From NCBI RefSeq assembly GCF_002117125.1, contig NZ_CP019344.1:1826501-1890500 (forward strand): a DNA stretch of 64,000 nt, in the 5' to 3' direction. The first letter of the stretch is position 1. Each line of letters begins with the position of its first letter. Source of the DNA: Nonlabens spongiae. GTDB taxonomy: Bacteria > Bacteroidota > Bacteroidia > Flavobacteriales > Flavobacteriaceae. The notes below the pieces were generated by a model. It was given only the letters and a program-made list of their open reading frames with translations. It did not search any database and was not told the origin of the DNA. Positions 54,448 to 56,825 of this stretch are shown one piece after another. The position numbers and the translations under genes were made by a program.

Positions 54448-55560
54448 ATGAAAAAAGTACTATTTATAGACCGCGACGGCACCATCGTCAAAGAACCACC
54501 GGTGGATTATCAGCTGGACAATTTTGAGAAATTGGAATTTCTACCTCAGGCCATTACGCAATTGCACCGCATTGCACGTGAGCTGGATTACGAGCTGGTG
54601 ATGGTGACAAATCAAGATGGCTTGGGAACAAAAAGTTTCCCAGAGGACACCTTCTGGCCGGTTCATAATTTAATGATGAATATTTTGAAAAGCGAAGGTG
54701 TAGAATTCAGCGAGGTGTTGATTGATCGATCTTTTCCTGAAGACAAAGCTCCCACCCGCAAGCCAGGCACGGCACTCATGACGCATTACATTAAAGGTAA
54801 CTACGATCTTGAAAACAGCTTTGTTATAGGCGACCGCAACAGCGATATGCAACTGGCCAAAAATTTAGGCTGTCAAGGCATCCAGTTACCTTCAATTACT
54901 GATGACAGCAATTTTGAGGATCAAGAAATTATCGCACTCAAAACTGACAGTTGGAAGGAAATCTTTCAATTCTTGCGTGGGCAGCCGCGCAAAGTGAGCG
55001 TGAATCGAAAAACAAAGGAAACCGACATTCAGATTACGCTCAATCTTGATGGGTCAGGGAATGGTACAATCAACACAGGACTCAAATTCTACGACCACAT
55101 GCTGGAGCAGTTGCAGCGTCATGGTTCACTGGATCTCAACATCAAGGTGGACGGTGATCTGGAAATAGACGAGCACCACACCATTGAAGATACGGCGATT
55201 GCGCTAGGTGACGCTTTCGCGAAAGCGTTATCTACAAAAAAAGGTATCAACCGTTATGGCTTTTTGCTACCCATGGATGATAGTCTAGCTCAGGTCGCGA
55301 TTGATTTCGGTGGAAGACCGTGGATCGTATGGGAAGCAGATTTTAAGCGTGAGTACGTGGGCGATATGCCTACGGAATTATTTTTCCACTTCTTCAAAAG
55401 TTTCAGCGACGCTGCCAAATGCAACTTGAATATCAAGGTTGAAGGAGATAACGAACATCACAAGATCGAGTCGGTGTTTAAAGCTTTCGCGAAAGCGGTT
55501 AAAATGGCCGTAAAACAAACTGGTGATGGGAAATTACCGAGTACAAAAGGAGTGCTATGA
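54448..55560 (+). CDS. hisB: Bifunctional histidinol-phosphatase/imidazoleglycerol-phosphate dehydratase
   Basis: A 370-residue fusion. The N-terminal HAD phosphatase has DRDGTIVKEPP (catalytic Asp8/Asp10), VTNQDGLGT and GDRNSDMQLAKNLG. The C-terminal IGP dehydratase has the two manganese-binding DEHHTIEDTAIALG and EGDNEHHKIESVFKAF blocks. Two palindrome copies give GDAFAKALS and KAFAKAVKM, both in helices where relatives have very similar Ala-rich sequence. It overlaps hisH by 4 bases. Confidence 0.96.
   Translation: MKKVLFIDRDGTIVKEPPVDYQLDNFEKLEFLPQAITQLHRIARELDYELVMVTNQDGLGTKSFPEDTFWPVHNLMMNILKSEGVEFSEVLIDRSFPEDKAPTRKPGTALMTHYIKGNYDLENSFVIGDRNSDMQLAKNLGCQGIQLPSITDDSNFEDQEIIALKTDSWKEIFQFLRGQPRKVSVNRKTKETDIQITLNLDGSGNGTINTGLKFYDHMLEQLQRHGSLDLNIKVDGDLEIDEHHTIEDTAIALGDAFAKALSTKKGINRYGFLLPMDDSLAQVAIDFGGRPWIVWEADFKREYVGDMPTELFFHFFKSFSDAAKCNLNIKVEGDNEHHKIESVFKAFAKAVKMAVKQTGDGKLPSTKGVL
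55212..55227. repeat. Iterated palindrome, in hisB (first)
   Basis: Exact 16-mer encoding DAFAKA next to the first metal-binding block. Confidence 0.95.
55483..55496. repeat. Iterated palindrome core, in hisB (second)
   Basis: 14-bp core GCTTTCGCGAAAGC encoding KAFAKA after the second metal-binding block. Confidence 0.9.
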
Positions 55561-56825
55561 TCGCGATAGTTAAATACAATGCAGGTAATATAGGTAGCGT
55601 GACTAATGCTCTGAATCGGCTGGGTGTTAAGAACATAGTAACGGACGATCCAGATGAACTTAAAGCCGCCGACAAGGTCATTTTTCCAGGTGTGGGCGAA
55701 GCCAGCACCGCAATGAAATATCTGAAAGATCGCGGGCTGGATGAGGTGATTTTAAGCCTTAAGCAACCAGTTTTAGGGATTTGTCTGGGAATGCAGCTCA
55801 TGTGTGCGCACAGTGAAGAAGGTAATGTGGAATGTCTAGGAATCTTTGATACGGTGGTGAAGAAATTTCCCAACTCTGGAGAATACATATTAGACAATAC
55901 GTCAAGCCCCCCTGTCCCCCAAAGGGGGGAAAGTATCCATGAGGGTCAAGAACAGCTGCAATACTTCAAAGTTCCACACATGGGTTGGAATGGAATCGGT
56001 GCGATTAGAACCAGAAAACACAAGAGTGTGCAGCAACTTGTTCGTGAGGCAAACCTCTCTTTCCCCCCTGTGGGGGATGTCCGCAGGACAGGGGGCTTGG
56101 CGCGGCCACACCACACAAGTACAAACAAGCAGTTTGCAAGCAAAAGAGAATACGCTGGTAAATTGCGTAGAGAGATGACCGAATCAGAAGTTATTCTATG
56201 GTCACAAATAAGTAATAACAGTAGAGGAACTAAATTTTCCAGACAAGAACCCATAGGCGGTTTTATACCTGATTTTGTTTCTCATGAAACCAAACTAATC
56301 ATTGAGGTAGACGGTGCTATCCACAATTTCCAGAAATCTAAAGATAAAGAAAGGCAAATCTATTTGGAAAATCAAGGATATCAAGTACTTCGATATACCA
56401 ACTCTGAAATCAAAAATAATCTCAGTCGCGTTTTAAACCAGATAGATTTTGCAGTTGAAAAGAGAAAGTGTGAATTGCATACTACCAAGACCCCCTACCC
56501 CCCAGAGGGGGGAAAGGTTCATGGCGATGAATTTAATCGAACCAATTTTGTTTCCTCCAGTTCCCCAGAGCAAGAGCAGAGAGATAGAATTTTGTCTGGC
56601 AATACAAGAAAATCAAAGCTGCTAAGAACTATTCAGTCCACAAACGACGTTTACTACGTCCACAGCTACTACGCAGTTCCAAATGAAGATGCTATAGCAG
56701 TTTGTGATTACATCTTACCTTTTGCAAGCGTGATGCAAAGGGACAACTTTTACGCCACGCAGTTTCACCCAGAAAAAAGTGCTGCAGTGGGAGAGCAGAT
56801 TTTGAGGAACTTTTTGAGATTATAA
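55557..56825 (+). CDS. hisH: Imidazole glycerol phosphate synthase subunit HisH with embedded DUF559-like endonuclease
   Basis: The HisH glutaminase is 422 residues, about twice the usual ~195. The HisH halves are recognisable: residues 1-105 with PGVGEAS and the nucleophile Cys76 in GICLGMQ, 139-151 (VPHMGWNGIGAIR), and 363-422 (NDVYYVHSYYAVP, QFHPE with His404 and Glu406). Between 151 and 363 lies foreign sequence whose core (~195-298) is a DUF559/Vsr-like endonuclease domain: TESEVILW, FSRQEPIGGFIPDFVS, LIIEVDGAIHN and GYQVLRYTNSEI. A second, smaller insert is at 106-138. All is in one open frame. No intein splice junctions are apparent. Confidence 0.85.
   Translation: MIAIVKYNAGNIGSVTNALNRLGVKNIVTDDPDELKAADKVIFPGVGEASTAMKYLKDRGLDEVILSLKQPVLGICLGMQLMCAHSEEGNVECLGIFDTVVKKFPNSGEYILDNTSSPPVPQRGESIHEGQEQLQYFKVPHMGWNGIGAIRTRKHKSVQQLVREANLSFPPVGDVRRTGGLARPHHTSTNKQFASKREYAGKLRREMTESEVILWSQISNNSRGTKFSRQEPIGGFIPDFVSHETKLIIEVDGAIHNFQKSKDKERQIYLENQGYQVLRYTNSEIKNNLSRVLNQIDFAVEKRKCELHTTKTPYPPEGGKVHGDEFNRTNFVSSSSPEQEQRDRILSGNTRKSKLLRTIQSTNDVYYVHSYYAVPNEDAIAVCDYILPFASVMQRDNFYATQFHPEKSAAVGEQILRNFLRL
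55907..55930. repeat. G-rich palindrome in hisH (left)
   Basis: CCCCCCTGTCCCCC, AAA, then GGGGGG: a palindromic repeat read as SSPPVPQRGE within the smaller insert. Confidence 0.7.
56061..56098. repeat. G-rich palindromic repeat in hisH (middle)
   Basis: TTCCCCCCTGTGGGGGATG followed by TCCGCAGGACAGGGGGCTT, the same family as the hisC copy at 53140. It lies immediately before the DUF559-like domain. Confidence 0.75.
56110..56515 (+). mobile_element. DUF559-like endonuclease module inserted in hisH
   Basis: The segment encodes the endonuclease-like domain (acidic residues in TESE, PDF and IEVDG match the PD-(D/E)xK-type pattern of DUF559/Vsr relatives) and is bracketed by G-rich palindromes at 56061-56098 and 56491-56515. 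The bracketing and the in-frame insertion into a housekeeping gene suggest a mobile or homing-like element; mobility is inference. Confidence 0.6.
56491..56515. repeat. G-rich palindrome in hisH (right)
   Basis: CCCCCTACCCCCCAGAGGGG followed by GGAAA, read as TPYPPEGGK directly after the endonuclease-like domain. Confidence 0.7.

Follow-up and report, generated by a model that had tools for sequence, protein, structure and literature searches.

How does a single open reading frame come to encode a complete HisH enzyme and, within it, a DUF559 nuclease? The question is raised by the hisH locus of Nonlabens spongiae in a stretch of 64,000 nt (NZ_CP019344.1, positions 1,826,501 to 1,890,500, assembly GCF_002117125.1), hereafter referred to as the window; the genome it belongs to is referred to as the source genome. 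The best explanation is probably a mobile DUF559 nuclease that is bounded by palindromes and persists, unspliced, as a tolerated in-frame domain of its host. This reading is carried by features established at the level of sequence, namely the in-frame position of the unit, inverted repeats at many of its copies, its occurrence at numerous sites that are unrelated to each other, a leuS site that is empty in relatives, the conservation of the catalytic residues, and purifying selection.

As proposed in the initial annotation, the window hisH is a single open frame (55557-56825, 422 codons) in which the HisH core is complete but interrupted twice. In a Pfam scan GATase was matched in two stretches and DUF559 (PF04480) at aa 196-298 with 106.4 bits (cut-off 20.6), and the NCBIfam model TIGR01855 assigns the frame to HisH with 189 bits, likewise in two stretches. 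Alignment with the HisH proteins of the genus maps the insertion points to approximately aa 106-137 (insert 1) and aa 148-350 (insert 2), a mapping that the initial annotation had left to such an alignment. The locus is composed as follows.

55557..55871, + strand: HisH N-terminal part, aa 1-105, with Cys76
55872..55967, + strand: HisH insert 1, approximately aa 106-137, which has a palindrome but no nuclease; the three further HisH-DUF559 proteins lack it or differ here
55903..55933, strand not assigned: C/G-rich palindrome within HisH insert 1
55968..55991, + strand: native HisH strand KVPHMGWN, aa 138-145, which separates inserts 1 and 2
55998..56606, + strand: HisH insert 2, approximately aa 148-350, the unit carrying the nuclease
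56059..56102, strand not assigned: left palindrome of HisH insert 2
56142..56450, + strand: DUF559 (PF04480) nuclease domain, aa 196-298
56486..56516, strand not assigned: right palindrome of HisH insert 2, inverted relative to the left palindrome
56607..56825, + strand: HisH C-terminal part, approximately aa 351-422 plus stop, with His404 and Glu406

Of 22 further genus genomes that were searched, 20 entered the comparison; one genome without a HisH match and one with only a C-terminal piece at the start of a contig were left out. In these 20 relatives the hisH frames span 203-248 aa, and both insertion points correspond to short, variable loops with other, non-nuclease sequence. Long HisH proteins with non-nuclease inserts in relatives had been named as a finding that would speak against the annotation, and half of this holds: both loops carry non-nuclease sequence, but it is shorter, which indicates that the loops are tolerant. 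Cys76, His404, and Glu406, which we take to be the catalytic residues of HisH, are invariant in the 21-row alignment, so that the Cys-His-Glu set is kept as annotated. The G+C content of the nuclease part is 34% versus 43-45% in the HisH parts.

In a protein search limited to the insert, four proteins were matched, of which one is identical to HisH of the window and comes from no other source. The remaining three are full HisH-DUF559 fusions with 92, 79, and 76% overall identity to it, and their presence argues against an artefact, a danger that had been raised at the outset. The insert 1 palindrome is missing in two of these three fusions and shorter in the third, suggesting a quicker turnover for the small insert than for the nuclease unit. 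Among 99 phylum genomes the HisH model matched 97 (88 above cut-off), and only the window's HisH was split inside one frame among the full matches listed. A second hisH, which likewise would have spoken against the annotation, was not found in the source genome by the HisH searches of genus and phylum genomes. In the scan of the genome collection, no close relatives of the HisH insert were confirmed.

Two G-rich palindromes were described initially as flanking the nuclease, and they do form an inverted pair around it (18 nt, 94%); the full count in hisH is three, including the one in insert 1. The propensity to fold into DNA hairpins was considered as the main palindrome signal and rejected: only the first palindrome clearly beats shuffled sequences (z -2.24), compared to -1.07 and -0.54 for the second and third. 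Inverted repeats were scored between left and right flanks of 220 nt each, with the 99th percentile of control placements at the same loci as threshold. The threshold was exceeded by 25 of 56 copies in frames of at least 200 codons and by 6 of 11 in shorter frames (two copies called solo have frames just over 200 codons), i.e., by 31 of the 67 copies of this first set, versus 5 of 590 controls. Copies from the phylum survey served as a second set, in which 18 of 26 exceeded the threshold versus 1 of 239 controls. The window's own hisH unit scores 31 against a threshold of 24. Furthermore, palindromes of the window type are rare in the source genome, where 7 of 11 pattern matches (6 of 10 places) are no more than 1.6 kb away from DUF559 copies, namely those of hisH and of a broken gene.

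That the unit occurs elsewhere, as predicted, was confirmed first of all within the source genome, where DUF559 is matched at eight places: hisH, leuS (a frame of 1158 aa), a 442-aa frame of the broken gene, three solo genes of which two are in tandem, and two weak partial matches that are near each other, at least one of them within a Vsr-like gene. The two tandem solo genes are similar and 800 bp apart (G000:C1:467619-470933). The broken gene (G000:C1:514500-522500), which we presume to be restriction- or methylase-like, contains a DUF559 unit with a palindrome of the window type. The leuS gene is open, a single copy was found, and its unit lies in frame, flanked on both sides by CCTCACCCC...CCCTCTCCGGCGGAGAGGG in inverted orientation.

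The leuS unit, at the position referred to as site B, was surveyed in 23 genus genomes, one of which lacks this part of leuS. Site B is occupied in 4 genomes including the source genome and empty in 18, and the empty site is sharp, with a match that is continuous except for 9 or 12 nt in these 18 genomes. On the leuS tree, which covers 21 genomes, the pattern of the four occupied ones requires three changes, and two of these are imposed by branches with good support. As a side observation, most leuS frames with an empty site B comprise 1016-1076 aa, compared to 956 aa for the shortest, with extra sequence near query codons 860-890. HisD proteins with a C-terminal DUF559 occur in five genus genomes; HisD of the source genome is free of it.

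Beyond the genus, PF04480 was matched in 143 of 299 family genomes and 170 of 296 phylum genomes, counts that include weak Vsr-like matches. Embedded copies were observed in LeuS, MetH, RecG, IleS, UvrA, MutS, HutU, an alanine-racemase/Mur-ligase fusion, and methylmalonyl-CoA mutase, all over curated NCBIfam/Pfam cut-offs. Also over cut-off are two end fusions, HisD with the copy at the C-terminus and HemD with the copy at the N-terminus; the MetG and PriA hosts, both partial proteins, score below the main cut-offs. Domain-restricted searches sized for long proteins yielded 699 and 2494 matches in overlapping sets. The best 120 of each were listed, and these 240 rows, some of them occurring twice, reduce to 215 entries, including two LeuS entries of the source genome and one fragment of the window's HisH. 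They hold 272 DUF559 domains: 159 entries have one, 55 have two, and one MetH has three. Stretches of at least 60 residues following DUF559 form 26 clusters, one of which consists of tandem copies and represents no separate site. A few clusters are helicase-like or restriction-like proteins, in which DUF559 may be native. Host proteins outside the scanned set are named by their Pfam accessions. Some databases name the fusions by both parts, e.g., leucyl-tRNA synthetase/very-short-patch-repair endonuclease.

The residues D, E, D, and H of DUF559, which we take to be the active-site motif of PD-(D/E)xK type, are kept in 271, 272, 272, and 270 of the 272 database domains and in 205, 204, 204, and 204 of 205 domains of a partly overlapping set, a conservation that is inflated, since protein searches favour intact domains. 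The ratio of nonsynonymous to synonymous substitution rates (dN/dS) of embedded copies amounts to 0.13-0.35 where dS stays below 1 (five pairs) and to 0.04-0.33 where it exceeds 1, with 0.01 in one saturated pair; many pairs were saturated and gave no ratio. As judged from these ratios, the embedded copies are under purifying selection. Where a host stretch could be compared, conservation is in most pairs lower for the nuclease than for its host; the host ratio for leuS site B was left out, since the stretch used there fell on a hypervariable part.

The descent of the copies was followed on a tree that includes 92 copies out of the 205. In this tree a branch separates the copies of HisH from the rest, and the same holds for those of HisD, of HemD, and of UvrA. 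A single clade of the 17 leuS site-B copies was rejected (p-value of the approximately unbiased test, p-AU, 0.0076), and the starred branches require no fewer than 3 changes for leuS site A, 4 for MetH site 1, and 3 for MetH site 2. The IleS copy is placed among RecG copies, one of which comes from the same genome. In one MetH gene the two copies are 88% alike, and for each of them the closest match among the remaining copies in the comparison has a likeness of 74-77%; one LeuS carries a tandem DUF559 pair with 90% likeness. For one leuS pair from two genomes, 169 of 183 codons are identical at silent sites over the nuclease and its near flanks versus 552 of 796 elsewhere, and none of 117 windows outside was as high, this tract having been delimited after the identity profile was viewed. 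A marginal excess was observed in another leuS pair (1 of 59 windows as high) and a slight one in three HisD pairs (0.76-0.79 versus 0.68-0.74), while seven further pairs show none. The strong tract fits a recent transfer that included the flanks, as a single case in the sequence data.

Several further points weigh against a mobile unit of this kind, next to the inflated catalytic conservation and the choice of the tract. Those copies that were taken from long open frames are in frame by construction, and one host gene of the source genome is out of frame before and after its DUF559 copy. No inverted repeat over threshold was found for 31 of the 56 long-frame copies. At the hisH flanks, the only site searched for it, no target-site duplication or direct repeat was found (shuffles were as good in 330 of 1000 cases). 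The idea that stop-free arms of the inverted repeats represent an adaptation to read-through proved weak and was rejected, with the three forward frames free of stops in 19 of 50 arms versus 273 of 1000 random stretches. A strong conversion-like tract occurs in 1 of 12 pairs, and the same leuS pair has a second island of identity at approximately codons 161-300. Within the genus, a single clade of the leuS site-B copies was not rejected (p-AU 0.163), and over 204 rows the copies mostly cluster by host site, with 36 label changes versus 100 in shuffled data. Taking this clustering together with the rejected clade and the forced changes, inheritance looks mostly vertical, with repeated jumps.

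How the enzyme accommodates the unit was approached by two structure models of the HisH fusion, the first from an alignment of 27 rows and the second from 48 rows. In the first the C-terminal half of HisH failed; the second mends it at the cost of a lower confidence for the nuclease. Block means of the predicted local distance difference test in the second model are 92-98 for aa 1-100, 81-96 for aa 351-422, 64-91 for the nuclease (aa 201-310), and mostly 33-51 for the linkers. Its HisH core aligns over the full length with V. cholerae HisH 4gud with a template modelling (TM) score of 0.90 of the target. The nuclease resembles 3hrl with TM scores of 0.91 (first model) and 0.88 (second model) of the target and a sequence E-value of 2.3e-15. 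In the first model it also resembles the homing endonuclease I-Bth0305I (3r3p; TM 0.79 of the target, E 3.4e-3), which is weak by sequence (E 0.24) and absent among the 50 matches listed for the second model. As modelled, the HisH core would keep its fold, with the nuclease held on loose linkers. With the modelled core intact around the insert, toleration as a loop domain, one of two fates suggested initially, suffices and the other, removal after translation, is unneeded and finds no support.

Loop inserts were also observed in HisC and HisF, which belong to the same operon as hisH, and relatives differ in the content of these loops.

53078..53176, + strand: HisC insert, palindrome without nuclease, approximately aa 34-66
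58212..58313, + strand: HisF insert without nuclease, approximately aa 133-166, a loop of genus-variable content

A 35-nt stretch of the HisC insert has 83% likeness with the left palindrome of HisH insert 2, and palindrome inserts without nuclease are found in the HisC loop of the source genome and of some other genus genomes. Due to their variation in the genus, the HisC and HisF inserts suggest that such loops are tolerant and that small inserts come and go. Apart from these inserts, the palindrome GCTTTCGCGAAAGC has 23 exact copies in the window, e.g., at 4192-4205, 55213-55226, and 55483-55496, and none in 100 shuffles. With 779 copies in the source genome and between 288 and 857 per genome across 23 genomes of the genus (none for the reversed control), it is a highly iterated palindrome of the genus. 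At 17838-17928 the window contains the 7-bp repeat TTGGAAC, arranged head-to-tail.

According to the explanation preferred here, the mobile element would be a DUF559 nuclease gene, typically situated between inverted repeats that contain palindromes, and those genic copies that persist would lie in frame and be translated through. The host enzyme would fold around the nuclease domain on its loose linkers and keep working. An in-frame unit read through in a working host would thus be fixed in a gene that the cell cannot lose and would need neither its own promoter nor its own splicing to be expressed. For its spread, the nuclease may cut an empty allele or a palindrome end, whereupon repair would copy the occupied allele. 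The nuclease is presumably active and the driver of the spread, and the fused HisH is presumably functional; insertion in tolerant loops, seen for HisH, presumably also holds for the other hosts. Homing of the unit by its own cleavage is plausible and suggestive only, with a strong tract in a single pair and likeness to I-Bth0305I in one of two models. The initial annotation is correct in its facts, and its interpretation, which holds for the larger part, stands as far as recurring in-frame units in essential genes, inverted-repeat ends at many of them, the sharp empty site in leuS, the conserved catalytic residues, and the missing splicing signature are concerned; its homing-like strategy keeps the status of a suggestion. 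It is tempting to speculate, and we regard it as possible rather than probable, that these units form a separate homing class without intron or intein, in which a palindrome-bounded nuclease spreads by cutting empty alleles of essential genes and does no harm because it inserts in frame where loops are tolerant; core enzymes across the Bacteroidota would then double as carriers of an active, site-specific nuclease.

The unit might instead be moved by other machinery, such as a transposase acting on the palindromes, with the nuclease as cargo that serves some other purpose. Such an action on palindromes is attributed to RAYT proteins in the case of repetitive extragenic palindromic sequences (REPs), and the inserts without nuclease in HisC and in insert 1 of HisH imply that the ends can move without the gene in cis; the lack of a detected target-site duplication at hisH is counted on the same side. 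Against this stand the rarity of window-type palindromes and their proximity to two DUF559 copies, as well as the near-invariant active-site residues of embedded copies, and we consider such a division of labour unlikely.

Ordinary domain accretion, in which DUF559 was fused because it helps the host, e.g., in DNA repair or defence, appears quite unlikely. Purifying selection on the embedded copies agrees with it, as does the fact that some hosts (UvrA, MutS, and RecG) are repair proteins, and other hosts are presumably restriction-like or helicase-like, judging by Pfam accession. In the same direction, a passage in PMC12907096 describes a Caulobacter DUF559 protein as a Vsr-like nuclease. However, LeuS, MetH, HisH, HutU, and the Mur ligase have no obvious function in common, one protein may hold several copies, and both the inverted-repeat ends and the scattered presence in leuS speak against a helpful fusion. 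Two fusions, those of HisH and LeuS, were scanned with the PADLOC defence models, and neither was matched.

The strategy resembles that of inteins, and the inserts lie in conserved proteins, for which a cryptic splicing element removed from RNA or protein was also considered. Except for this resemblance, the observations point the other way: no intein splicing domain was found in Pfam scans of the window's HisH and four other hosts, in agreement with the initial claim, and the region 55400-57000 gave four Rfam matches with E-values of 1.5-4.5, all below cut-off and none of them a group I or II intron. By these tests the unit belongs neither to the inteins nor to the introns. Moreover, the model that includes the insert has an intact HisH core, and the HisD and HemD copies are end fusions for which removal is unneeded, so that splicing is highly improbable. 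An assembly artefact or decaying pseudogene, to which the broken host gene of the source genome would conform, is scarcely conceivable given the intact HisH frame, the fusion in three other database proteins, the open leuS of which no further copy was found, and a genome completeness of 99.98%.

Nuclease units seem to live unspliced in highly conserved sequence, i.e., in aminoacyl-tRNA synthetases, methionine synthase, a helicase, and repair proteins. They supply many natural domain-insertion experiments and a directly testable mobility system, and the fusions are a likely source of misannotated essential enzymes. Searching the open-access literature by title or start of the abstract, with subscription papers mostly outside this scope, we found no paper on in-frame DUF559 inserts.

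Among known systems, inteins with homing endonuclease domains share with the unit the in-frame nuclease in conserved proteins, the scattered presence, and the empty alleles, but here no splicing domain was detected and the insert appears to stay in the protein. According to a review, homing nucleases owe their freedom to invade highly conserved sequences to being associated with sequences that splice themselves (PMC3943268). The leuS unit, with its occupied and sharp empty alleles, resembles homing elements in general. In case of the EDxHD homing endonuclease I-Bth0305I, the likeness is one of nuclease fold, as seen with the first model; the sequence relation is weak, and 3r3p is labelled in the PDB as a mobile intron protein. 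Where it treats inteins, PMC9403480 places a DUF559 gene within the EDxHD homing family.

DUF559/Vsr-like nucleases (PF04480; PDB 3hrl), to which the Caulobacter protein belongs, have the same domain family and fold. They are often stand-alone proteins, unlike the copies described here, which are embedded in host enzymes. Miniature inverted-repeat transposable elements and REP/RAYT systems have short palindromes and inverted-repeat ends in common with the unit; the unit differs by carrying a nuclease and by the target-site duplication not seen at hisH. Passages in PMC10969869 and PMC3733652 describe REPs inside genes and report palindromic DNA in frame within unrelated protein-coding genes for the Rickettsia palindromic elements (RPEs), which according to the former measure approximately 150 bp and encode a short peptide. 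The DUF559 units are likewise palindromic DNA in frame in unrelated genes, but with approximately 600 bp they are larger and encode a nuclease. By analogy, the unit may work like a homing element without splicing or like RPE-type selfish DNA that carries a nuclease.

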